IMG/VR virus record: IMGVR_UViG_3300036944_001289
Location: 62,001 to 126,000 of that record
DNA: 64,000 nt
Reading direction: 5' to 3' (one strand)
From: a virus
The notes below the pieces were generated by a model. It saw nothing but the letters and a program-made list of their open reading frames with translations. It was not told where the DNA came from and did no database searches. Numbering within the stretch: position 1 is the stretch's first letter; the number at the start of each line of letters is the position of its first letter. The position numbers and the translations under genes were made by a program. Of the stretch, positions 8,620 to 63,339 are shown piece by piece.

Positions 8620-9846
8620 TTATATTATATTTATATTACCTGAAACTGACGGTGTTAATGCGTTTACGTAGCATATAGTACCTGTAGATGATGGTGTCCA
8701 CATGATTGTACCTGTGGTTATACCTGAGGTACTGTTGTTACCGTATATATCTGTTATTGACGATGTGTCAAGTGCACTATTTCTTATTGCAAACGGTATA
8801 GATGTACCTACTATGAGGTCGTAATTAGTGTTAGCAGATAGTGTAATTGTTGGATTACTACCTGATGATTGATCTGTTCTAAATTCACCACTAAAAGACG
8901 ATACGTTTATAACTACAGAGCTTGAAGTAAACAACATACTATAAACTGTAGTAGTTGGTGAGGGTGTAGTAGTTGTGGTCGTTGTCGTTGTAGTTGTGGT
9001 CGTTGTGGTTGTTGTGGGGTCGGGTGGGTCGATCGGTGGTAGAGTTGTTGTAGTTGTAGTAGTTGTTATTGGTATTTCAGGTTCTGGTATTATAATAGGT
9101 GGTAGGGATATTATAGGATCCGGTGCACTGCCTAATGAAAATAGTAAGTTACCGTCAATACTACCATTAAAATTTATATTTTTAACCTTTATAGGAAAAT
9201 TACCAGACCATGTTATACCTACACGCACACTATCAGGTACTTTACTTAAATCTATATTCGTATTATATGTTACAACTTGTTTATATATATCGTCTTCATA
9301 CGTATATAACGTTACCTGTTGCATATTGTTTTTAAATGCAACTCTAAATACATTCCATTCATCATTGAATGGTTTTGCAAAACCAGGTATATAATTCGAA
9401 CCAACGTATTCAAATGAGGATAGTTTTCTTACAACAAAGCTACTAGGCTGTAATGTATTAGTACCTGTATTAAATTGTTGTAATCCACCGTTTGATGTAA
9501 AAATACCATCTACATCATACATCGCACACATAAAAAAACCACTAACTGCTGAAAAAGGTGTTGTGTTAGTATCCGTAATAATACCTAAACCACCACCAGC
9601 ACCACCACCAGTTAATGTAGTTACTCTGCTATCTAATAGAAATACACCAAAACCATCATATATTGTGGAGAACTGCAAACCTAAAAAGTCATCATTTTGC
9701 AATAAGAGTCTGTCACCTGTTTGCAATAATAAGTTACCTAAAGATACTCTTTCTTCAGGGTCTTGTATCAAAAACGAAACAGTTATATCATTATCTGTTT
9801 TAAATGCTTGTTTATAAAGTATATTGCTACAAAAACCTGATGACAT
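8620..9846 (-). CDS. L-type lectin-like domain, Thr-rich linkers and degenerate cupredoxin-like domain (408 aa)
   Basis: Residues about 1-235 look like a concanavalin/legume-lectin-type jelly roll ('DGFGVFLLDSRVTTL', 'GGGAGGGLGII', 'SGFFMCAMYDVDG'). A Pro/Thr stretch follows, with two near-pure Thr tracts (about residues 262-300). The C-terminal 110 residues resemble the cupredoxin-like domain seen in many phage and marine bacterial proteins ('NPTITLSANTNYDLIV', 'GTIMWTPSSTGTICYV'), but the usual His/Cys/His/Met copper ligands are not conserved. A late box lies exactly 5 nt before the ATG. It probably decorates the tail or fibres and binds glycans. It ends 2 nt before the protease gene. Confidence 0.65.
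   Translation of the reverse strand: MSSGFCSNILYKQAFKTDNDITVSFLIQDPEERVSLGNLLLQTGDRLLLQNDDFLGLQFSTIYDGFGVFLLDSRVTTLTGGGAGGGLGIITDTNTTPFSAVSGFFMCAMYDVDGIFTSNGGLQQFNTGTNTLQPSSFVVRKLSSFEYVGSNYIPGFAKPFNDEWNVFRVAFKNNMQQVTLYTYEDDIYKQVVTYNTNIDLSKVPDSVRVGITWSGNFPIKVKNINFNGSIDGNLLFSLGSAPDPIISLPPIIIPEPEIPITTTTTTTTLPPIDPPDPTTTTTTTTTTTTTTTTTPSPTTTVYSMLFTSSSVVINVSSFSGEFRTDQSSGSNPTITLSANTNYDLIVGTSIPFAIRNSALDTSSITDIYGNNSTSGITTGTIMWTPSSTGTICYVNALTPSVSGNINII
8628..8635 (-). promoter_or_regulatory. Late-promoter-like box TATAAATA
   Basis: Perfect T4 late consensus on the minus strand, 9 nt before the ATG at 8618 of the protease gene. Confidence 0.5.
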
Positions 9847-24967: not shown

Positions 24968-25672
24968 ATGTGGATATATAAGATAAATATAGATGATTAT
25001 GAATACATAGGATCAACATATAATAAAAAAGGCCCTGAAGAAAGAAGAAGACAACATGTAAGAGGGTTAATCAAGGGCACACACGTTAACAAGAAGATGC
25101 AAAATGTCTTTAATAAACATCAAACTTTTAGATATACCGTTTTATGTTCCTGTCTTAAATTAGAGCACTTAATACATATTGAGGAAGAATTTATATTGCA
25201 ATCTATGAACGTATTAAAAGATAAATGTCTTAACTTAACGTTATCTTATTCAGGTGGTAGTGGTTGGATGAAGTTTAAGAGCTCGGAAGAGATTCAAAAA
25301 ATACATAGCAAAAGAAGATTATCACCCAGCAGACAACAAATAAGAAATTTAGCCCATAAACAAACGTTACAGGCTAAGTCTGAAGAGGAAAAAGAAAAGA
25401 TATATAAAAAGCAATCTGATGGTCGTAAAAAGAATTTAGTAAACCGTAAAAATTATACACCTATTAATTTAGAAATAACAATACCTGGCGGAAGACCTAG
25501 TGTAGATATATACCATACAGAGCAGGATTTTTTTAAAAAGACAAGATTTGAAACCTCTACACTTTGCACATTAAAGCAGCATGGAATACATGTAGTAAAA
25601 AGAATTTTACCTAACACAAAACACAACTACCCAAAGGGTACTATTGTAAAGTTTATAGAGGTTCAGAAATAA
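24968..25672 (+). CDS. GIY-YIG family (homing-type) endonuclease
   Basis: A 234-residue protein. The N-terminal module has a variant GIY-YIG signature: 'MWIYKINIDDYEYIGSTYN' (WIY...YIG), with the catalytic Arg in 'RRQHVRGLIKG' and a downstream Glu in 'LIHIEEEFI'. The C-terminal half is Lys-rich and probably binds DNA ('SKRRLSPSRQQIRNLAHK'). Such free-standing enzymes (Seg-like in T4) cut related phage genomes and bias inheritance of their own region. It is inserted between gp18 and a tube-fold gene, against their direction, and carries its own late box 5 nt from the ATG. It overlaps the convergent gene by 20 nt. Confidence 0.85.
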   Translation: MWIYKINIDDYEYIGSTYNKKGPEERRRQHVRGLIKGTHVNKKMQNVFNKHQTFRYTVLCSCLKLEHLIHIEEEFILQSMNVLKDKCLNLTLSYSGGSGWMKFKSSEEIQKIHSKRRLSPSRQQIRNLAHKQTLQAKSEEEKEKIYKKQSDGRKKNLVNRKNYTPINLEITIPGGRPSVDIYHTEQDFFKKTRFETSTLCTLKQHGIHVVKRILPNTKHNYPKGTIVKFIEVQK

Positions 25673-32508: not shown

Positions 32509-32539
32509 GGAATTAACTTACTATTTTTAAGTTGATTCC
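32509..32539 (+). other. Imperfect hairpin after the late gene
   Basis: GGAATTAACTT pairs with AAGTTGATTCC across a 10-nt loop (one G-T pair). It has no T run, so a terminator is uncertain. It lies between the stop at 32498 and the next late box. Confidence 0.35.
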
Positions 32540-32551
32540 AACTCACAAGCA

Positions 32552-32559
32552 AATAAATA
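32552..32559 (+). promoter_or_regulatory. Late-promoter-like box AATAAATA (homing endonuclease)
   Basis: 5 nt before the GTG start at 32565; it decides the start of this gene. Confidence 0.6.
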
Positions 32560-32564
32560 ATTAT

Positions 32565-33587
32565 GTGAGTATAATATATAAAGCAAAACATAAAAACGTT
32601 AAAGATAAAGAAGAAGAAATTATAACAGCGTATTTGCAGGGAGAATCGATTGGTGATTTAGCTCGCAAATACGCTGTTTCTCTATATGTGGTTGATCAAA
32701 TTCTAATCAAAAACAACATCCAAAAAAGAACATATGAGGAAGCTAATGATCTCAAAGTTCAAAAATTATATTATAATGATAATATCTTAGAAAAATATAA
32801 AGAAGGAGCTTTGCTATATCAACAAGGTATACCTCTTTACAAAATCATTAAACAACTCAACATTGCTGAGTATAGATTAGTGCAATTCCTTAAAGAAAAT
32901 AGCATACCTTTACGTACACGTTCTGAAATTCAATCTGCATTATCAGTTAGACCTTGGGGTCAGAAAATTAAAGGTCCTGACATAATTCAAAAAATTATAG
33001 AAGAATATAATCAAGGTGTAGGTTGTGTTGAGTTAGCACAAAAATATAATGTTGTTCATGGTACTATTCGATTACTATTAAAACGTAATGGTATTAAGTT
33101 TAGAACATGTAAAGAAACACAGTCTTCTGAATACACTAAAAACTACATTAAACAGAAAAATCTAAATAAATACGGTGTGGTTAGCACTATGCAACTACCT
33201 GAAGTTTTTGAGAAGGCTCAAAAATCTATGTTCAAGTATAAAACCACTATAATAGAAGGTGTAGAGTTTCAACATTTACGTGGTTATGAAGAGTATGGTA
33301 TCCGATATATCCTAGAGCATTTTGATGATGTAATTGTTACTGATATACTTGCAGGTAATGATGTTTATAATCTTAATATTCCTTACAACCATCAAGGTAA
33401 AGATAGGGTGTATTTTCCTGATATTTTTATACCGAAATTTAATTGTTTGGTTGAAGTAAAAAGTGATTACACTTATAACCTAGACATCGATCGCAACATT
33501 GCTAAAAAAGAAGCTGCTGAAAAGATAGGTTATACACATATTACTTTAATTTTTGATAAAAAAGGTAATTTGATAAAACGACTTTAA
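32565..33587 (+). CDS. PD-(D/E)XK-type homing endonuclease with HTH repeats (340 aa)
   Basis: Three helix-turn-helix-like repeats are seen in the first 160 residues ('YLQGESIGDLARKYAVSL', 'YQQGIPLYKIIKQLNIAE', 'YNQGVGCVELAQKYNVVH'), as in free-standing phage homing enzymes. The C-terminal nuclease has 'YFPDIFIPKFNCLVEVKSD', a PD...E-x-K core, and 'NIAKKEAAEKIGYTHITLI'. The protein aligns with the enzyme at 55113-55982 from its first residues ('SIIYKAKHKN' with 'DIVYESRHQN'). I use GTG at 32565 because the late box is 5 nt upstream and this matches the relative's start; a TTG at 32532 would run through the box. It shares its TTAA stop with the primase gene, next to which it has inserted. Confidence 0.85.
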   Translation: MSIIYKAKHKNVKDKEEEIITAYLQGESIGDLARKYAVSLYVVDQILIKNNIQKRTYEEANDLKVQKLYYNDNILEKYKEGALLYQQGIPLYKIIKQLNIAEYRLVQFLKENSIPLRTRSEIQSALSVRPWGQKIKGPDIIQKIIEEYNQGVGCVELAQKYNVVHGTIRLLLKRNGIKFRTCKETQSSEYTKNYIKQKNLNKYGVVSTMQLPEVFEKAQKSMFKYKTTIIEGVEFQHLRGYEEYGIRYILEHFDDVIVTDILAGNDVYNLNIPYNHQGKDRVYFPDIFIPKFNCLVEVKSDYTYNLDIDRNIAKKEAAEKIGYTHITLIFDKKGNLIKRL

Positions 33588-53623: not shown

Positions 53624-55090
53624 TTATTCCCGATTGTATTTTGTTATATTTTTTCTTGCACTGCTACCATAAGGTGTGCTGTATAGCTCTAAGTAACAAT
53701 CTATATTGGTATCCGTTTCAAGCCAGCGTGTTTCTGCATACTGTCTTGCACGTTTTGATATTGCCTTATATTGTTTGTGGTCTTTAAGAGTTTCGTTGAT
53801 TCTGTCTATCATTTCATCACCAGTCTTGAACTTAATAGGAGCATTTGAGTATGTTACTATATCTTGACATGCAATAGGTAGACCAAAAGCACACGCTTCA
53901 ATATACTTGAGATCGCTCTTAGCTTTATTAAAGTTGTTATCTTGTAGTGGTGCTATCATCATATTTGCTTTAATATTAGCAATATCTTGACCATAGTTAT
54001 ATAACTTAGACCATGGATGAAATTCGATCTTACCAGATTTTACGAGATCCATTAACGGTAATGGAAATGCACCTAAGAATATCCACTGAAACTTATCAAC
54101 AGTCTTACGAATTACATTATTCACATGGAAAAAGTCATCGTTATAATTTCCTGTTCTGTTTTCTACATCGAAATGTGCACCTGAACCTGTATAGAGAATA
54201 CGTGGCTTCTTCTTATTATTATCATAACTTGTCATTATTTCAGTACCATCGTAATAATTACCTAACCAGAACTTAGGCATGAAGTTTGGAATTACTGTAA
54301 CATTCTTATTACCTGTCTTACTCTTGTAGTAATCTTTCATGAAATCACAAGTAACTGTAATTTCATCACACAGAGCCATAATTGCACATGCTGATTCTCT
54401 TATCTCTGGATTATCAAAAGCTGGCTTAAACTTGTTATAGTCTGGTATGTCCTCTTTGAAACAGATATCATCTATTTCATAAATTATTTTCATCCCGTTT
54501 TGTTTTGAAACATCACGTAAGAATCTTACAAATTCAAGCTGTTGTCTTGTTGCTTGTCTTTGAATTCTTACGGACTTTACCATAGTATAATATCTTGGAT
54601 CTAGATTCATTACTGTTGTACCATGCACAACAGCCTTTTGATGAGCGTTGAGTACTTGCTCAGGCCAGATCATTCTCCAGTGACCACCATTTATATTCAG
54701 TTTAAATCGTTAATTAAAACCCGCTTATTAAAGCTGCTATATATTTCTATATAGATTAGACTATATCATCACCTCGTAAGGTGCTCCCCATTTCCACATC
54801 ACTTGATGTGTACTCACTTTTGTGATAGTCGTTGAACGTTCCGTTATGGCTTCGCTGCTGATTACCAGTTAAGGTTTCCAGCAATTAAAGGAGTTTGCAT
54901 TATATATTACTATATAATGGGCCAAGGTTTAGCCTGAGTAGTCTGCGTAGTAGTTTAAAAATCTTGGCAAAGATAGTTCTGGTGGAAGCATTTCTTCACT
55001 CTGTCGTTGAGGCTGTACTGTTTGTTGTATTTGCTGTGTAGGGTCACTAAACGGTAGTCTAGGTCTATTTATTGAATTAGGTACGAACAT
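53624..55090 (-). CDS. Glycosyltransferase interrupted by a group I intron (exons 55090-54931 and 54687-53624)
   Basis: Two coding pieces surround the 243-nt intron. Exon 1 (ATG at 55090) codes 53 residues ending 'NYYADYSG' plus one base. Exon 2 in frame begins 'GHWRMIWPEQVLNAHQKA'. Joining at the predicted splice sites rebuilds 'DYSGCGHWRMIWP', the Gly-Cys-Gly and R-M-x-W-P seen in this glycosyltransferase type. Exon 2 continues as a GT-B-like protein: 'IIYEIDDICFKEDIP', 'VTVIPNFMPKFW' and 'YIEACAFGLPIACQDIVTY' (GT4-type acceptor/donor motif). Exon 2 alone would lack its N-terminus. About 408 residues when spliced (407 codons plus the split codon). Acceptor unknown. Confidence 0.8.
54688..54930 (-). 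ncRNA. Group I intron (ORF-less, 243 nt)
   Basis: All four conserved group I elements are present in order on the transcript: P 'AATTGCTGGAAAC', Q 'AATCAGCAGCGAAGCC', R 'CGTTCAACGACTATC' and S 'GATGATATAGTCT'. R and S pair as P7. P1 can form by pairing exon-end GGCU with intron GGCC (U.G at the 5' site), the intron ends in G, and a P9-like hairpin CTATATA-GAAA-TATATAG lies near the 3' end. This resembles the IA-type introns of T4 td and nrd genes. No ORF inside. Confidence 0.88.
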
Positions 55091-55112
55091 AATTTATATA
55101 CAGTATATTATT

Positions 55113-55982
55113 TTAAAATATTAAGAAATCAAATTTATAACCGTTTTCTTCTACACATTTCTTTTTTGCTAAATTTCTTTCCAAATCAATTTTAAATGTG
55201 TATTCACTTTTAACTTCAATTATTCTTTTTTCTTTAATTATAAAAATATCTGGATAATATCTATGCTCTTTACCATTATATGTATACGTAAAGGGAGGCA
55301 TGTTACATTTACCTGTTTCGATATCATCTTCTGTATAACCTTTAGCTAATAATAAATTAATTGCTTTATTTTCATAGCCTTGTGTTTTAAATTCCTTCTC
55401 TCCTACTATAAATGTTTTTATAGAAAAAGCGCTATTTTGTTGTTTTTCAAAATACTCTGCAACTTGCATAGGGTTAATAACTCCATACTCTTCTTTAAAT
55501 TTTTCTTGATATCTCTTTATTAATTCACCCCAACCATTATATTTTAATATAATGGTCTGTTTAAACAATTCGTTAGTAACATTTTTATAATTATATTGTT
55601 CTTTTCTGTTTCTTTTTTTAATACCATTTTCATTTAAAACTCTAATAATAACACAATTATCTACGCTGTATTTTTTGGATACATAATTGACACCCTTACC
55701 GTTGGAATACTCCTGAATAATATCTTTTATCTCATCTTCTGTAAATTTTTTGTAAATTGTATTGTTTCTTTTTTCATTATATCTTAATATGTTTCTGGAT
55801 TCTTTTTTATTACGTAACGAAACACCGTTTTTAATTATTATTTCTCTAATTACAGATACATTAACGGCATATAGGTTAGCAAGTTCTGACGCTGAGTAAC
55901 CTTCAATATAATTTATTATAATTTCTTTAGCTTTACCTTTTGTATTTTGATGCCTACTTTCATAAACAATATCTATGTTCAT
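55113..55982 (-). CDS. PD-(D/E)XK-type homing endonuclease (289 aa)
   Basis: Relative of the enzyme at 32565. HTH-like repeats ('YIEGYSASELANLYAVNV', 'YSNGKGVNYVSKKYSVDN') precede the shared 'EYGVINPMQVAEYFEKQQ' linker and the nuclease core 'YYPDIFIIKEKRIIEVKSE' (PD...E-x-K). It starts 5 nt after a late box and ends 22 nt before exon 1 of the intron-bearing gene. It probably mobilises this region; whether it helps the intron (which has no own nuclease) is unproven. Confidence 0.85.
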   Translation of the reverse strand: MNIDIVYESRHQNTKGKAKEIIINYIEGYSASELANLYAVNVSVIREIIIKNGVSLRNKKESRNILRYNEKRNNTIYKKFTEDEIKDIIQEYSNGKGVNYVSKKYSVDNCVIIRVLNENGIKKRNRKEQYNYKNVTNELFKQTIILKYNGWGELIKRYQEKFKEEYGVINPMQVAEYFEKQQNSAFSIKTFIVGEKEFKTQGYENKAINLLLAKGYTEDDIETGKCNMPPFTYTYNGKEHRYYPDIFIIKEKRIIEVKSEYTFKIDLERNLAKKKCVEENGYKFDFLIF

Positions 55983-55987
55983 ATATA

Positions 55988-55995
55988 TATTTATT
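55988..55995 (-). promoter_or_regulatory. Late-promoter-like box AATAAATA (homing endonuclease)
   Basis: Minus-strand box 5 nt before the ATG at 55982. Confidence 0.6.
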
Positions 55996-56017
55996 GTTTT
56001 GGTTATTGTATTCTTAA

Positions 56018-58042
56018 TTAATCAACAAAGTTTACACGTTTTGTTATTCCGTTATGCTTTTCAAGAAAGATTATATCTCCGTTTACAGCTTTTACACTCT
56101 CTTTTCTATGCGAGATAATTAAAATAGATTCTTTAAACGTTTCTACTCTTTCTTTTAGAATATCTACTACTAGCTCTACACCACGTTGGTCTAAGCTGGT
56201 ATCAAATAGTTCATCATATACAGTTACATTATAGTATACATCTCCGTGAGTCTTTCTCATATCAATAAATGAGAAAAGACATGCTAAATCAATAGCTTTT
56301 CTTTCTGCACCAGAGAAGTTATTATAAAGGCATATCTTACCTTTTTCGTTTAATATCTCTTCTTCAAAATACTCGTTAAATATGCATATACTATTACTAT
56401 CTAGCTTCTTGAGGTAGAATGCTAATTTTGCGTTAAAGTTTTGTAGAATTTTCTTTACTAGGAAACTCTTTACACCTTCTTCACTTATTACAAACTTTAC
56501 AACCTCAAGCATATCAGCTTTCTTTTTAAGACTTTGAATTGTATTATTGGATGTTTCTATCTTTGTATTTGCCTCTTTTATTAATTCATCAAAAGTCGTG
56601 ACATCGTTTGATATAGTTATGCTACCTTCTTGTAACTGTTTATTTAAATTCTGTAAATCTGTAATTCTTTTCTTATTTGACTGTCTTGTAGTTTCTTGCA
56701 CTGCTGCAAGCTTTATATCTTTATTAAGACTATCTATGTGTTTCTTTATTTTGGACTTTTTATCTTCTAAACCATTTGCCTCTTTTACATATGCAGATAA
56801 TGTCTCTACTAATTTTAGCACATCGTTATGCATATTTTTCTTTTCTTTTTCTATCTCCTCTATATCGTGTTCTGATATTGGACGTAAGCATGTAGGGCAA
56901 ATCTGTTCAGTAGTACCTACTTTTTGTAATTGCTCTTTTTTGGTTTTGATTTCGTTTTTTACTGTTGCTACATTTCCAAGTGTCTGATTGCATAGTTCTT
57001 CTACCTTAACCAAAGCCTTAGTATATTTTTCTAATTCTGTATTCTTTTCAGTCTGATTTATTATAACTTCATTTTGAATATCAGTTTCAATCTTTTGTAT
57101 CTCTGCCTCGTTATCTTTGATTTTTTTATTAATCGCTAATATCTTGGTCTCTTTTTCTTTAGACTTTAACTCCTTTTGCTTTTCAAAGGCAGATACACTG
57201 TTTTTAATTTCACTAAGTCTGGCATTTTCTATGTCTAGTTCTCTCTTTGTGCTGTTTTGGTCTTCTCTAAGAGAAGACATCATTGCAGAGAAAACCTGCA
57301 AATTGAATATTTGTTCAATAAACTTTCTTTTCTCTACTTTAGACTTTGACATGAAAGGTAGAGTATCATTTAATGTCATCAGTACACAATTTCTAAATAC
57401 TTCAGGTGATGATGATAGTACAGTTTCAATATACGAATTTGTATTTGCAATAGTATCTAATGTTATATCATTACCATCTTTATAAAGAAACAATCTAGAC
57501 GGTGATAATGTTCTTATTATGTTGTATGTGTTTGTATTACCGTTTTGATTAACATCGAATTCTAATTGCACTTCGCATGTATTTTGAGTTATATTGTTTG
57601 ATATAAACTCTTTCTTAAGTTCTCTTAATGTAGTACCAAATATAGCAAAGTATAATGCATCTGCTATAGTGGAATTGTGTGATGTAATACCGTTACTATA
57701 ATATTCCTTAACGTTTCTAACTTGCAAATCATATAAATTTTTAAATAAATTAGTACCTCTTACGTATTTTATAGTTTCACAACCGTCCTTTGTATGAACA
57801 ATTTCATTTACATTTAAATGTTGAACCTTTACAAACTCTACACCTGTAAATACTCTATGGTTACCTGAACATTTAAGGTTTTTTCCGGCATCAGTTTCAA
57901 TTTCATAAACTTGTTCATTGTATGCTGTTACATCTGCTTCATCGATAGGGTTAAACCCAAATCTTGTCTCTACATCAATATGACCTTTATATTGAGGATA
58001 TACTTTATAAAAATCAGCTATTTGTTTTACAGTAGCTTTCAT
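56018..58042 (-). CDS. 46: Split gene 46, second half: IntC plus gp46 C-terminal extein
   Basis: Residues 1-123 are a C-terminal intein fragment: Hint strands with 'LKCSGNHRVFTG' (block B), 'YDLQVRNVKEYYSNGITSHN' (blocks F and G, ending His-Asn) and Ser124 as +1 residue. The extein goes on with 'STIADALYFAIFG' (second part of Walker A), the Rad50-type coiled coil with zinc hook 'QICPTCLRPISEHD', the signature 'NFSGAERKAIDLACL' and Walker B 'VTVYDELFDTSLDQRG'. With gp47 it forms the nuclease complex of recombination and host DNA breakdown. Joined to the first half by trans-splicing it would give a 600-residue gp46 (49 plus 551; T4 gp46 is 560). Confidence 0.93.
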   Translation of the reverse strand: MKATVKQIADFYKVYPQYKGHIDVETRFGFNPIDEADVTAYNEQVYEIETDAGKNLKCSGNHRVFTGVEFVKVQHLNVNEIVHTKDGCETIKYVRGTNLFKNLYDLQVRNVKEYYSNGITSHNSTIADALYFAIFGTTLRELKKEFISNNITQNTCEVQLEFDVNQNGNTNTYNIIRTLSPSRLFLYKDGNDITLDTIANTNSYIETVLSSSPEVFRNCVLMTLNDTLPFMSKSKVEKRKFIEQIFNLQVFSAMMSSLREDQNSTKRELDIENARLSEIKNSVSAFEKQKELKSKEKETKILAINKKIKDNEAEIQKIETDIQNEVIINQTEKNTELEKYTKALVKVEELCNQTLGNVATVKNEIKTKKEQLQKVGTTEQICPTCLRPISEHDIEEIEKEKKNMHNDVLKLVETLSAYVKEANGLEDKKSKIKKHIDSLNKDIKLAAVQETTRQSNKKRITDLQNLNKQLQEGSITISNDVTTFDELIKEANTKIETSNNTIQSLKKKADMLEVVKFVISEEGVKSFLVKKILQNFNAKLAFYLKKLDSNSICIFNEYFEEEILNEKGKICLYNNFSGAERKAIDLACLFSFIDMRKTHGDVYYNVTVYDELFDTSLDQRGVELVVDILKERVETFKESILIISHRKESVKAVNGDIIFLEKHNGITKRVNFVD
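57674..58042 (-). other. Split intein C-fragment (IntC, 123 aa)
   Basis: N-terminal region of the second gene 46 half, ending at His-Asn before +1 Ser. It is unusually long, as in atypical split inteins of the AceL-TerL type (short IntN, long IntC). Confidence 0.88.
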
Positions 58043-58823
58043 TAATTTCTTTTTTTATACTTTCTATTTGACTGTTATATGGTTTGTGTGACCAAAATTT
58101 AATAATATTATATCCATTGTCTTTAGCAATTAAATGTTTCTTTTTTTCATGTTCTATTTTTGATGTTATGGAGATGTTTTTATATGGGTATTTAAAATTT
58201 TTAATTTCATCATGTGACATAATTTCAGGATCTGGGTGAAATTCATATCTGTTGTATTCGATAATAATCTTAAGAGAAGATATTGTAAAATCAAAGTAAA
58301 ATATTTTTTTATTATCTCTTAATGAGAACTCCTTAGACCCTGTAATTCCTATCATGATATCATTACGTTGTATACCTAATTTCCTACAAAACTTATATAA
58401 AGGTATTAAAATCTTTAAACTTTCTTTAGAGGCTTTGCCGCGTTTCTTATATGTAATATATTTAAAATTATAATAGTGTGTGTTAAAATTTTCTGTTGTT
58501 TGTTCTATTTTGTTTTCTAAAATATACTTTTTTGTTTTGTGTATGATGTATTGATCTGAACCTTTTTGTACCCTAAATTTACAATAATCATCTAAATTAC
58601 AATTTCGTAATATAAACGACTCTAAACTATGTTGTTTAAGTTTGTTTATTAACTCAATTTCTTTACTACTTTTACAAAGTAATGTAATTTGCCACTTTTT
58701 CTGTCGGTTATTAAAAACTTTTAAACCTTCTAATTCTCCATACTTTTCAATACATTTTTTAAGTGAAAACGTAGACTGCCTTTCCTTAACCTTATTAATT
58801 GCATCTTGCGTTGTTAATCCTTT
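58014..58823 (-). pseudogene. Homing endonuclease part B: Vsr-like nuclease domain, frameshifted from part A
   Basis: An open frame in -1 relative to part A runs from the A5 tract at 58821-58825 to the stop at 58014. It starts with 'GLTTQDAINKVKERQST', which continues the repeat pattern of part A ('KKGYTEDEAIKKVLEHQ'). Later 'CIEKYGELEGLKVFNNRQK' is the linker seen in such enzymes, and 'FYFDFTISSLKIIIEYNRYEF' (Asp, Glu, His of the Vsr-like/EDxHD type) with 'KKKHLIAKDNGYNIIKFW' forms the nuclease. No good start codon exists in this frame before the ATG at 58355. It overlaps the IntC start by 29 nt. Either an inactive gene, a sequencing indel, or -1 slippage at the A run. Confidence 0.75.
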
Positions 58824-59095
58824 TTAACCCAATAACCAACTTGATTATTTCTCCAATCCTTTCGTCCTGTATTTTTGCTTTTACTTTTTTGCGATAATAT
58901 TTGTTGATGCTCTAATACTTTTTTAATAGCCTCATCTTCTGTATACCCTTTTTTAATCCAAAAGTACTTTGAGGATTTTCTAAATGAGCTTACATGCCTT
59001 TTTGCTTCTTCTTCTGTAAAAACTATTCCAGTATCAGGGTTGATTCTTTTTCTAGTTACCCAAAATTGCCATTGTTGTGGTGAATTGTAACTCAT
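58814..59095 (-). CDS. Homing endonuclease part A: DNA-binding repeats (93 aa)
   Basis: Begins at the ATG at 59095, 5 nt after a late box. It contains repeats 'FWVTRKRINPDTG', 'YFWIKKGYTEDEAIKKVLE' and 'GYWVKKD' (stop). The last repeat is cut off at TAA at 58816-58814; a one-base shift continues it into part B. This gene lies between the IntN and IntC halves of gene 46, where fractured-gene endonucleases occur. Without a shift only a DNA-binding fragment is made. Confidence 0.75.
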   Translation of the reverse strand: MSYNSPQQWQFWVTRKRINPDTGIVFTEEEAKRHVSSFRKSSKYFWIKKGYTEDEAIKKVLEHQQILSQKSKSKNTGRKDWRNNQVGYWVKKD

Positions 59096-59100
59096 ATAAT

Positions 59101-59108
59101 TATTTATT
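59101..59108 (-). promoter_or_regulatory. Late-promoter-like box AATAAATA (intein-associated endonuclease)
   Basis: Minus-strand box 5 nt before the endonuclease ATG at 59095. It overlaps the end of the IntN half (stop at 59104). Confidence 0.6.
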
Positions 59109-59337
59109 GATTCTCAATAAATTTTTTAAACTTTTCCAAAACCATTGCATCCTTTATTTGAATAGTTACTTCAGTCTGCGGATCAACACACTTACCTACA
59201 CCGTTTCTTCTGTCTTCCTTATCTCTATTAATACCGGTGATAATATTTAAACCTGTATTAAAGTCTAAACTAACCACATCATCACCTACTGATAGGAAGT
59301 TTTTTATCTTTATGTTTTTAAAGTTTACGTACTTCAT
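59104..59337 (-). CDS. 46: Split gene 46, first half: gp46 N-terminal extein plus IntN
   Basis: Residues 1-49 start the Rad50/SbcC-type ATPase: 'FKNIKIKNFLSVGDDVV' and 'GLNIITGINRDKEDRRNGVGK', the Walker A up to its Lys. At residue 50 the intein begins: 'CVDPQTEVTIQIKD' (block A, catalytic Cys1). The fragment is only 28 residues before the stop. The split falls inside G-x-x-x-x-G-K-(S), so unspliced protein could not bind ATP. ATG overlaps the gp47 stop (ATGA). Confidence 0.93.
   Translation of the reverse strand: MKYVNFKNIKIKNFLSVGDDVVSLDFNTGLNIITGINRDKEDRRNGVGKCVDPQTEVTIQIKDAMVLEKFKKFIENQ
59107..59190 (-). other. Split intein N-fragment (IntN, 28 aa)
   Basis: Cys1 to the end of the first gene 46 half. 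The short IntN is typical of atypical split inteins and needs the long IntC at 57674-58042 to complete the Hint fold. Confidence 0.88.
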
Positions 59338-60401
59338 GTAATTACCTTATTGTATAAGGATAAAGTATATTTTATAATTTCCTGTTTGTTATTTATATCT
59401 AACATGCTTACAAATTCTGTTACAATATTTTCTATTTCAGCGCCCTTTATGTCAGAGTCTACTACATCTTCGTGTACTTTTAGTTTATTGTAGTTAACAT
59501 CGTAATCTATTTTAAGATCTGCAGGTTTAAATGTTGTTATTTTACCGACTAAAAGATCTAGATGGTCTGTTGATATATTTTTATCTACTATTAGCTTAAT
59601 AATATTACCTTTAAAGTTATTGCTAAAATATGTGATTGGGTCTTTGTTCGTAATAATCTCTGAAAGAGAAACTTTTAGATGTTTAGGTGTTAATGTGTTT
59701 TCTTTAAATTCAAATTGTAGTGTATCTGTATCTAATAGATAATAACCTTTTGTTTGATAGGCATCACCGAAGTCTGTCTGGAATGGGTTACCTACGTAAA
59801 TTATTTTGCAGATGTTTGAAAATACCTTTTCATCTCGTTGATGAAAGTGTCCTGAAAATACTAGCTTACTTTTTGCTGTTAAATCATCTGGGTTATCTCC
59901 ATGTTCGCAGATTTTATGACCGTTCATTCTAAAATTCTGTAGTTCAAAATGACCAAACACTACATCACTTTGCGGAATATCTTTTATGTCACATCCCCAA
60001 GGGCAGAATGTAAATCGTTTACCATTAAAATCTACACTGGTTATATTATCAAAAATTTGTATATTAGAATTACCTTTCATTATTGAAAGGCTATGAACAT
60101 CTGATGTGTTCTTATAATAGCAGCAATGGTTACCTGGTATCATAATAATCTTAAATTTACTTAATTTTTGTAAAATTAGTGAGTGATAATGTAGAGTTTT
60201 AACTTCTACTGCATCTCTATAATGCATCCAATCACCACAAAATATAACAGTATCTATATTATTAGATTCGAGCTCAGATACAAACCAATTTGCCCAGTTT
60301 AAAGCAACATTTAACCAAAAATCGCTATTTTGATGTACCCCTAAATGTAAGTCCGTAAATATTGCTATTTTATTATTCAGAGGAGTCACTGTCATAATCA
60401 T
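59334..60401 (-). CDS. 47: Recombination nuclease subunit gp47 (Mre11/SbcD-like)
   Basis: A ~355-residue metallophosphoesterase. Motifs are 'IFTDLHLGVHQNSDFW' (D-x-H), 'DTVIFCGDWMHYRD' (GD), 'KIIMIPGNHCCYYKN' (GNH), 'VVFGHFELQNF' and 'LVFSGHFHQRDEK' (GHxH). With gp46 it makes the Mre11-Rad50-type complex that processes ends for UvsX and degrades host DNA. I start it at the ATG at 60401; others lie at 60404 (GTG) and 60395. It overlaps the gp55 end and the gp46 start. Confidence 0.94.
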   Translation of the reverse strand: MIMTVTPLNNKIAIFTDLHLGVHQNSDFWLNVALNWANWFVSELESNNIDTVIFCGDWMHYRDAVEVKTLHYHSLILQKLSKFKIIMIPGNHCCYYKNTSDVHSLSIMKGNSNIQIFDNITSVDFNGKRFTFCPWGCDIKDIPQSDVVFGHFELQNFRMNGHKICEHGDNPDDLTAKSKLVFSGHFHQRDEKVFSNICKIIYVGNPFQTDFGDAYQTKGYYLLDTDTLQFEFKENTLTPKHLKVSLSEIITNKDPITYFSNNFKGNIIKLIVDKNISTDHLDLLVGKITTFKPADLKIDYDVNYNKLKVHEDVVDSDIKGAEIENIVTEFVSMLDINNKQEIIKYTLSLYNKVIT

Positions 60402-60822
60402 CACTAATTGGCTTTACGTAGAGGTCAACATCGCAATTTTCTGTTAACTCTTGCTCATACATTCTTTCTTTATACTCTGTTATCGTATCGTGATGCTTCT
60501 TTTCTTTTTTGATTCTATTAATGAATGCATTGAATGCTATTGTTGTAAAGTAACTGAAAGGGTTAAATTCTGATTTAATATCGAACTTTTTATTCTTAAC
60601 TGCAGTATACATCTTTACTATTGCATCGCCTACCATTTCATCTCTATATGTATAGTTAATAAAATTTGAGGAATAACTTAGACCTGTTGCAATTTTATTA
60701 ATATATTCAGCTAACTCATTTGTAATTTCATTAGATTTATAATATATAACAAGTTTCTGTTTAAACTCTTCAGGGTCTACATAATATTCTGTCTTTTTAG
60801 GTTTTGGACCTCGTTTTGCCAT
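60373..60822 (-). CDS. 55: Late sigma factor gp55
   Basis: A 149-residue minimal sigma factor (T4 gp55 is 185) that directs host RNA polymerase to late promoters. Visible features are the basic N-terminus 'MAKRGPKPKKTEYYVDPEE', 'YSSNFINYTYRDEMVGDAI' and 'FNPFSYFTTIAFNAFINR' (sigma region 2-like -10 recognition helix), and an acidic, flexible C-terminus. Its presence makes the many TAAATA boxes in the window meaningful. Overlaps gp47 by about 30 nt. Confidence 0.88.
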   Translation of the reverse strand: MAKRGPKPKKTEYYVDPEEFKQKLVIYYKSNEITNELAEYINKIATGLSYSSNFINYTYRDEMVGDAIVKMYTAVKNKKFDIKSEFNPFSYFTTIAFNAFINRIKKEKKHHDTITEYKERMYEQELTENCDVDLYVKPISDDYDSDSSE

Positions 60823-60835
60823 AGTGAGATTATAT

Positions 60836-62281
60836 TTAATCTAGAGGTTTTTCAACCAGTTTTGTTGAAGAATAATTAATTTTTTCTCTATCGTAAATAG
60901 ATTTGCGATGCATACCGTGAGCACCACCGTATTTTAGATTATCTACTATATCTACAATAGTCAATTTTTGTTTGTTGTTGTGTAATCTTAAACCTCTACC
61001 AATCGATTGTATAATTCTTATAAAGCTTTTACCACCTGATCCAAAAACTATCATATGTATATTTTTTACATTAATACCAGTAGAAAATATGGCACTTATT
61101 GCAACGCAAACTATATTATCTTTAACTTCCATCTCCTTAATAACTCTGTCTCTCTCATCTACATCTACATCACCTCGTATAAAATATACGATTTTATCTT
61201 GTAATTTAGCTTTAAGATTATCGTAAATTAACTGGCCGTGTGATATATGATTTACTAGTATTAGAGTATTGTTATTAAAGTTTTTGCATAGTGTATTAAT
61301 TATATTGTTTCTAAATTTATTATTATAGATGTGTTCTAATTCTGATTTATACTTATTAGTGCCAGGTATTTGAGGAACTTTAGTAGTATAATCTATATCT
61401 AATACTTTAATAGATACTTGTGTAAGATATTTCTCTTCTCTTAATTCAAAACTACTCTTTTCATAGATAATAGTACCTAATTTACTTATAATATTTAGCT
61501 CTTCACCTCTATCATCAGGTAATGTACCTGTAAGACCAAATTTATGGTATGTTTTAATTTCATCTACAAGTTTACATATTTTGTTTTTACCTTTTAATTT
61601 GTGCGTTTCATCAACAATAACTAAATCTACATCGTTTATCCATAGATTTTCTGCATATTTGCTTTGTAATATACCTATATTTGCTATGATAACATCACTG
61701 CTAAGATCAGGTTCTATATTTCCAGTCCATCTTGTAACAGTAAATGGTACTTTATAGCTTAGAAAATCAGAGTGTGTTTGGTTTACAAGTGATAGATCTG
61801 GAACTATCATTAGTGCTTTTAGTTTCTTAACCTTATAATTATAAAACGTACTCAATAAACTTGCTGAGATTAAAGTCTTACCACCACCTGTACCTATTTT
61901 AATTATACCTCTACCGAATGAAAGCGCGTTCTTTATTGTTTCGCTTTGAAAATCTCTAAGTTTAAGAGATAGATCATCATAAACATCAACACCGGTTACT
62001 GTTGGTCTAACTACCTTTGGTATATCTTTATCAATATCTAGGTTTACATCAGTAAAACTTACAGATATAAATTTACATATATCAAAAAATAGCCCCGGCT
62101 CAAACATACCTGTAGGTGTTATAAAGTATTTTCTATCAGCAACAAACCTCATCCCTTTTTTTCTCATAAAAAAGGCACCTTCGTTCTTTACACTGAAATG
62201 TTCCCTTATTTCAGTTAGAAAATCACCAGATAACCTACAAAGTCCACGATTTTTTAGATAATCTATACGTATACTTTTCAT
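60836..62281 (-). CDS. uvsW: DNA/RNA helicase UvsW
   Basis: A 481-residue SF2 helicase that unwinds R-loops and recombination forks and helps switch origin use late in infection. Motifs: 'GRGIIKIGTGGGKTLISAS' (Walker A, about 130), 'VDLVIVDETHKLKGKNK' (DETH), 'YHKFGLTGTLPDDRGEE' (motif III), 'VCVAISAIFSTGINVKNI' and 'SIGRGLRLHNNKQ' (VI). Length near T4 UvsW (502). Its start overlaps the uvsY stop, the T4 pairing. Confidence 0.95.
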   Translation of the reverse strand: MKSIRIDYLKNRGLCRLSGDFLTEIREHFSVKNEGAFFMRKKGMRFVADRKYFITPTGMFEPGLFFDICKFISVSFTDVNLDIDKDIPKVVRPTVTGVDVYDDLSLKLRDFQSETIKNALSFGRGIIKIGTGGGKTLISASLLSTFYNYKVKKLKALMIVPDLSLVNQTHSDFLSYKVPFTVTRWTGNIEPDLSSDVIIANIGILQSKYAENLWINDVDLVIVDETHKLKGKNKICKLVDEIKTYHKFGLTGTLPDDRGEELNIISKLGTIIYEKSSFELREEKYLTQVSIKVLDIDYTTKVPQIPGTNKYKSELEHIYNNKFRNNIINTLCKNFNNNTLILVNHISHGQLIYDNLKAKLQDKIVYFIRGDVDVDERDRVIKEMEVKDNIVCVAISAIFSTGINVKNIHMIVFGSGGKSFIRIIQSIGRGLRLHNNKQKLTIVDIVDNLKYGGAHGMHRKSIYDREKINYSSTKLVEKPLD

Positions 62282-62707: not shown

Positions 62708-62917
62708 ATGATAAGTTTTAAAAAATTCTATGCTATTTTTAAAGAAGATAGCTCTTACTCAGATGGTACATTAGGGCCTGCTGCAAATGTATCTCACAAT
62801 GCAATAGCCAATAGCGATTGGTATGCACCTGGTGACTATAGAATACCAAAAGGTGGTAGAGTATATAGACGCAGTGGTGTTGTAAAGCGTAAAAAGAGAC
62901 GTAAATACAAAAAATGA
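62708..62917 (+). CDS. Small basic late-type protein (69 aa)
   Basis: Begins 'MISFKKFYAIFKEDSSYSD', a short lead like other plus-strand late proteins, continues 'GTLGPAANVSHNAIANSD' and ends very basic ('SGVVKRKKRRKYKK'). Unknown family; possible DNA-binding or head protein. Its stop overlaps the next ATG (ATGA). Confidence 0.6.
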   Translation: MISFKKFYAIFKEDSSYSDGTLGPAANVSHNAIANSDWYAPGDYRIPKGGRVYRRSGVVKRKKRRKYKK

Positions 62918-63339
62918 TAACAGATTTTGGTCATTGGATTAATTGCACATCATTAAATGTTGAGGAGTTACCCTATGGCTTTATCTATTTGATAGAGAAT
63001 AAAGTAACAAATAAAAAGTATATAGGTAAAAAACAAATTAAAAGTGTAAAAAAGCTTAAACCATTAAAAGGTAAGAAGAATAAAAGGCATTTTGACGTTG
63101 AGACAGATTGGAAGACTTATACATCTTCTTCTAATGAGGTTAATAGTGACATAGAAAAGTACGGAAAAGATAACTTTTCGTTCTCAATTATAAAATTTTG
63201 TGATTCTAAAAGTGAATTAGCATACTTTGAAGCAAAATTACAATTCGAAGAGAACGTACTATTACGTGAGGATTACTATAACGGTATCATAAATTTGAGA
63301 ATAGGTAAAAATTGTTTTATAAAAAAGTTGAAAACATAA
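62914..63339 (+). CDS. GIY-YIG-like endonuclease-related protein (141 aa)
   Basis: Contains 'PYGFIYLIENKVTNKKYIGKK', a GIY-YIG-type start, with 'DWKTYTSSSNEVNSDIEKYG' and 'FSFSIIKFCDSKSELAYFE', the pattern of a widespread small T4-phage protein with this fold. The usual catalytic Arg/Glu pair is partly recognisable (Glu in 'YFEAKLQF'). It is not flanked by its own late box and starts within the previous stop, so it looks like a resident gene rather than a free-standing mobile enzyme. Confidence 0.7.
   Translation: MITDFGHWINCTSLNVEELPYGFIYLIENKVTNKKYIGKKQIKSVKKLKPLKGKKNKRHFDVETDWKTYTSSSNEVNSDIEKYGKDNFSFSIIKFCDSKSELAYFEAKLQFEENVLLREDYYNGIINLRIGKNCFIKKLKT

Follow-up and report, generated by a model that had tools for sequence, protein, structure and literature searches.

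An atypical split intein with a Vsr-type homing endonuclease gene very probably fractures gene 46 of a metagenomic virus at the Walker A motif

The 64,000-nucleotide stretch of DNA analysed here (the window; positions 62,001 to 126,000 of the virus record IMGVR_UViG_3300036944_001289) carries on its minus strand a gene 46 that is divided into two open reading frames (ORFs), one at 59104-59337 (77 aa) and the other at 56018-58042 (674 aa). The phage is T4-like, and its gene 46 specifies the Rad50/SbcC-like component of the gp46/47 recombination nuclease. The upstream ORF, which reads ...RRNGVGK/CVDPQTEVTIQIKDAMVLEKFKKFIENQ up to its stop codon (a slash marks a junction throughout), consists of a 49-aa N-extein (59191-59337) ending in NGVGK, the first part of Walker A, with an AAA_23 match at residues 9-37 (E 0.0023), and of a 28-aa N-terminal intein half (IntN; 59107-59190, stop codon 59104-59106) that starts at Cys1 (CVDPQTEV...). 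The downstream ORF opens with a 123-aa C-terminal intein half (IntC; 57674-58042), which contains GNHRVF and the block B His62 and ends in NGITSHN with penultimate His122 and Asn123, and continues from STIADAL into a 551-aa SbcC/Rad50-like C-extein and its stop codon (56018-57673; phrog_77, E 8.3e-68), the first residue of which is the Walker A Ser that would serve as +1 nucleophile. The break therefore lies at K49/S50, exactly between the Lys and Ser of the ATP-binding loop, and ligation of the two exteins is predicted to give a 600-aa gp46 (49+551) with the splice-junction peptide NGVGKSTIADAL. Between the two parts, also on the minus strand, lies a homing endonuclease gene in two frames, a 5' part of 93 aa (58814-59095) and a 3' frame of 269 codons plus stop with a probable Vsr-like domain (58014-58823), the final 29 bases of which are shared with the start of IntC. 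An intact gp47, the Mre11/SbcD-like partner (59334-60404, minus strand; Metallophos PF00149, E 2.2e-9), adjoins the gene, its end overlapping the start of the gp46 N-part. The SbcC-like ATPase sequence together with this neighbouring metallophosphoesterase places the interrupted gene in the gp46/SbcC-Rad50 family.

Comparison with the two nearest sister phages (contigs L003 and L004, about 87% DNA identity) reveals uninterrupted gp46 genes in which the N-extein and the C-extein are contiguous at the exact junction (GGTAAA/TCTACA; GGTGTAGGTAAA/TCTACAATAGCA), and the insertion in the window is therefore precise. The C-extein is 92% identical to the intact L003 gp46, and the ratio of nonsynonymous to synonymous differences (pN/pS) against the intact sister is 0.08 for the C-extein and 0.04 for the N-extein. 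Among the 80 nearest relatives, 78 are uninterrupted at this site, L015 is truncated and L002 is a duplicate of the window region. In a second clade, which was retrieved using gp46 of the occupied contig L099, the site is empty in 76 of 77 classifiable loci, L099's own contig being the only occupied one, and overall about 150 relatives have an empty site. The insertion thus breaks a conserved gene at an exact point while relatives retain it whole, as is characteristic of fractured genes. Within the 209,282-base virus record, which is perhaps incomplete, the gp46 C-part occurs once with no second copy, and no other intein was detected there by PF14890 or TIGR01445.

The inserted halves were recognized as an intein when they were joined, scoring 36.5 bits against Pfam PF14890 (Intein_splicing; curated cut-off 35.8) and 31.4 bits against TIGR01445 (curated cut-off 24.5), the latter match running from residue 1 of IntN. 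All of the splicing residues are present, namely Cys1, His62 in block B of IntC, His122-Asn123 and Ser+1, and Cys1, the block B His, the His-Asn pair and Ser+1 are invariant across the aligned split gp46 relatives. These observations were further supported by an AlphaFold2 model of IntC by itself, which reached a predicted local distance difference test score (pLDDT) of 94 and for which all 47 Foldseek matches in the PDB at E<=0.001 were inteins or bacterial intein-like (BIL) domains, headed by VidaL (6vgv; E 1.3e-7, TMq 0.85, 23% identity). The predicted fold of IntC is that of a Hint domain. At the sequence level, its best PDB match was CatC, a consensus of atypically split TerL inteins, which is a weak match (E 0.013), and VidaL was also among the matches. 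The modelled IntC opens with a helix at residues 5-14, so that the split point would precede this helix, as sequence alignment with VidaL likewise suggests. With its halves in separate ORFs, at 28 aa and 123 aa, the element has the layout of the natural atypical split inteins, a class in which IntN spans about 15-37 aa and IntC about 100-125 aa (PMC11766414, PMC13014065). A group I or group II intron was considered as an alternative and rejected, since a scan of 55,000-60,500 gave no Rfam match at E<=1 and intein motifs are present at the protein level. The original prediction, made from the sequence alone, had already read gene 46 as two genes parted at Walker A by an atypical split intein; the division agrees with the contiguous exteins of the sister phages, the proposed 28-aa IntN, 123-aa IntC with GNHRVF and SHN, and 600-aa product agree with the ORF translations, and the intein assignment is supported by the profile and fold searches, both of which it had proposed as checks. 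An intact gene 46 elsewhere in the genome, which it had said would count against it, was not found in the 209-kb record.

Relatives of the insertion were identified by a codon-degenerate pattern scan over the HN/STIxDA splice junction, which returned 12 further contigs on which gp46 is preceded by an IntC sequence joined to it at this Ser, some of the contigs beginning inside or just before IntC. Eight of them (L083, L091, L094, L095, L099, L100, L101 and L108) also carry the corresponding N-part, in which Cys follows GK, L095 and L101 being near-identical to each other. A single-sequence search of viral contigs with IntC or the endonuclease remnant matched only the duplicate record, and neither an AGY-Ser variant of the junction pattern nor a scan of genome contigs yielded a relative. 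In the more distant SbcC-like gene of L088, a contiguous 138-aa mini-intein occupies the same place and models as a complete Hint domain. The split inteins fall into two dissimilar groups, A (the window, L094/L120, L108/L122, L096/L121 and L123; IntC 41-60% identical within the group) and B (L083, L091, L095, L099 and L100; 52-79% within), with IntC identities of only 19-29% between them, and their alignment suggests, short of proof, that the split site is shifted relative to helix 1 between the groups. Group A members with C-exteins only 19-22% identical to that of the window (28-34% over the first 90 residues) have IntCs that share 41-45% identity with the window IntC, and the 92%-identical sister phage has no intein. 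Conversely, the C-exteins of L099 and L121 are 56% identical while their IntCs share only 19%, which indicates different inteins in related hosts. Constraint on a small intein domain may explain part of the contrast between IntC and extein in group A. In a pair of relatives pN/pS was 0.17 for IntC against 0.24 for the extein, making IntC as constrained as the extein. These comparisons support, without proving, repeated gain or horizontal movement of split inteins at one gp46 site. Struck in at least eight other phage contigs, the gp46 Walker A motif is a site that a mobile element has hit repeatedly, though not often.

The endonuclease gene of the window is interrupted by a frameshift at an A-run (TTAAAAAGGAT) near 58,820, with a stop just downstream, and since its ORF is spread over two frames the gene is apparently broken. 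Its 3' part has a match (E 7.6e-11) to phrog_22677, the family that includes the VSR endonuclease of Aeromonas phage Aes508; the Aes508 enzyme is encoded within a split gp43 and is 26% identical over 98% to the window endonuclease. A Pfam search with the window endonuclease gave no match. The 5' part is 34-43% identical to residues ~92-180 of the intact endonucleases that occupy this gp46 site in L083, L091 and L100. An active endonuclease, produced through a programmed -1 shift or hidden by a base-call error, would agree with the A-run and its nearby stop and with a 3' frame that is long, open and retains its family match; we consider this unlikely, though still worth entertaining, given that the same-site family members of L083, L091, L099 and L100 are each encoded in one open frame, that the heptamer differs from the classical A-AAA-AAG and that both records carry an identical base call. 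Among the intact endonucleases, those of L100 and L091 are 73% identical over the first 226 residues and divergent afterwards, and the C-terminal domain is Vsr/DUF559-like in L083 and L100 and GIY-YIG-like (T5orf172) in L091 and L099, the Pfam score of the GIY-YIG-like domain falling just below cut-off (L099 also matches phrog_681, E 8e-14). This pattern represents a nuclease-domain swap on a common DNA-binding part. No endonuclease lies between the intein halves of L094, L095/L101 and L108. In the 462-kb phage LR756500 (L112, 2401-5672), a relative of the endonuclease (29% identity across almost the whole 3' part) resides in a PhoH gene fractured at Walker A (TGKAG/C...HN/TGKT), the locus comprising a 26-aa IntN, the endonuclease and an IntC of up to 175 aa, and Caulobacter phage Cr30 carries a free-standing relative just ahead of an intact terminase gene. 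The endonuclease gene anticipated between the halves by the original prediction is accordingly present, but not as one intact gene; this frameshift, the exact empty site in the sister phages and the repeated hits in other phages go beyond what had been proposed.

The arrangement resembles the fractured genes gp41, NrdJ and IMPDH, reportedly described by Dassa et al. in 2009, and the split gp43 of Aes508/Aes123, in which a conserved phage gene bears split-intein halves with a Vsr-like endonuclease between them. In these systems the split site is the usual one, with an IntN of about 100-120 aa and an IntC of about 40 aa, whereas the window combines an atypical N-terminal split site with insertion in gp46 and a frameshifted endonuclease; the fractured-gene layout is otherwise present. 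A search of the open literature, which did not extend to Dassa 2009, turned up no split intein in gp46 or Rad50. The mini-inteins at the TerL Walker A K/T of Ackermannviridae (e.g. Vibrio phage Kuja) are 37% identical to the window IntC over 82%, but they are contiguous and unsplit, without an endonuclease between parts, and reside in another gene. The AceL-TerL, GOS-TerL and Cat inteins share with the window a short IntN (25-37 aa), a long IntC and a host that is a phage P-loop ATPase gene, a short-IntN layout that has been described (PMC11766414), yet their host is terminase rather than gp46, and the IntN here has 28 aa. VidaL, a natural atypically split intein and the best fold match of the window IntC, differs in its 16-aa IntN (PMC13014065) and shows low sequence identity, while the start of the window IntC, ahead of the N-terminal helix, looks nearer to the VidaL cut than to the AceL cut. 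By the features tested, the window intein appears to work like, and to belong with, the natural atypical split inteins. Other intein arrangements were seen in further phages: in the 735-kb phage LR756501 (L114, 3360-5639), a TerL-like C-part starts with a separate IntC-like region ending in LNLN/T instead of SHN, and in Salicola phage SCTP-2 (L118, 2740-4710), the single chain of a UvsX-like protein holds two inteins, of which one lies immediately ahead of the P-loop GK (SG/C...SHN/SGKS).

Overall, we assign a probability of about 0.93 to the reading that gene 46 is fractured at Walker A by a mobile element made up of an atypical split intein and a Vsr-type homing endonuclease gene. Trans-splicing is inferred from established intein chemistry: both gp46 pieces would be translated, IntN would dock on IntC, an acyl shift at Cys1 would be followed by transfer to Ser+1, and cyclization of Asn123 would release the 600-aa gp46 with its P-loop restored (GVGK/ST). 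The strong constraint on gp46 (pN/pS 0.08), together with an IntC that in a pair of relatives is as constrained as the extein, argues that splicing does happen. The element presumably homed into an intact gene 46, after which decay of the endonuclease would have begun, the split intein being retained because it would be needed to rebuild gp46. As gp46/47 has been listed as a possible participant in homing (review, PMC2988022), the element may depend on the very gene that it interrupts, which is speculation. Since the recombination in which gp46/47 acts is needed by homing, the element would sit in a gene of its own repair machinery; that the gp46 P-loop is a dedicated split-intein niche, with trans-splicing, retained even in members that lack the endonuclease, perhaps setting the timing or amount of active gp46 during infection, is a doubtful extension of this idea.

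Several observations weigh against the reading of a mobile split intein in gene 46. IntC alone scores below the TIGR01445 cut-off (21.3 vs 24.5); L002 has the same arrangement but is 100% identical over 12 kb, so that it does not represent an independent phage; an intact gp46 could conceivably lie outside the 209-kb record, which may be incomplete; and with a frameshifted endonuclease the present mobility of the window element is doubtful. The broken endonuclease would also suit a dead or dying element, in which the halves no longer splice, the gene is reduced to a two-piece pseudogene, and gp46 is lost or has its place taken by a nuclease of the host or another phage; this is improbable, as the two extein ORFs and the two intein halves all remain open, the catalytic residues are all kept, gp47 next to them is intact and pN/pS against the intact sister remains low. 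Still less credible is an unspliced two-chain ATPase held together through the associated intein halves. Rad50-type ATPases are built from separate lobes, and phage enzymes in two pieces do exist, PMC10448857 citing a ribonucleotide reductase that a homing endonuclease gene has divided, but a break inside the P-loop would place the intein tails of both chains in the nucleotide site, and association alone requires none of the splicing residues that are invariant in the split relatives. An assembly or binning artefact, with the split as a chimera, can be dismissed almost entirely, even though the source is metagenomic and the sole, identical duplicate record may come from the same reads, because a codon-exact insertion with matching intein halves is unlike random misassembly and independent contigs show the same layout.

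The fracture of gene 46 adds a phage Rad50-like recombination ATPase to the genes broken by natural atypical split inteins, at a site that is occupied by two dissimilar intein groups. Moreover, the relatives provide at least eight further natural pairs of IntN and IntC with a short IntN, the type wanted for chemical protein labelling. The stages that a homing cycle would be expected to pass through are found at this one site, from empty, through occupied with a Vsr-type or GIY-YIG-type endonuclease, to a broken and finally a missing endonuclease, and the site is therefore well suited to testing the origin and persistence of split inteins. As gp46/47 may take part in homing, a direct test of a selfish element depending on the gene it interrupts is also possible.

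Directly after gene 46 lies an ORF (55113-55982, minus strand) with a helix-turn-helix and a DUF7487/TnsA-like nuclease (PF24308, E 1.5e-26), and as no more than about 100 bp of DNA is unmatched at this position in the sister phage L003, the ORF seems to represent another mobile endonuclease next to the gene. A paralogue at 32532-33587 (plus strand) has the same phrog_1303, phrog_3611 and phrog_15137 matches. Two further plus-strand ORFs appear GIY-YIG-like by eye, one at 24968-25672 in the structural gene region near TerL (WIYKIN...YIGSTYNKKGPEER) and the other at 62914-63339 (YLIENKVTNKKYIGKKQ). Finally, a minus-strand ORF at 8620-9846 contains long threonine runs (TTTTTTTT) and probably encodes a tail or fibre-type protein.

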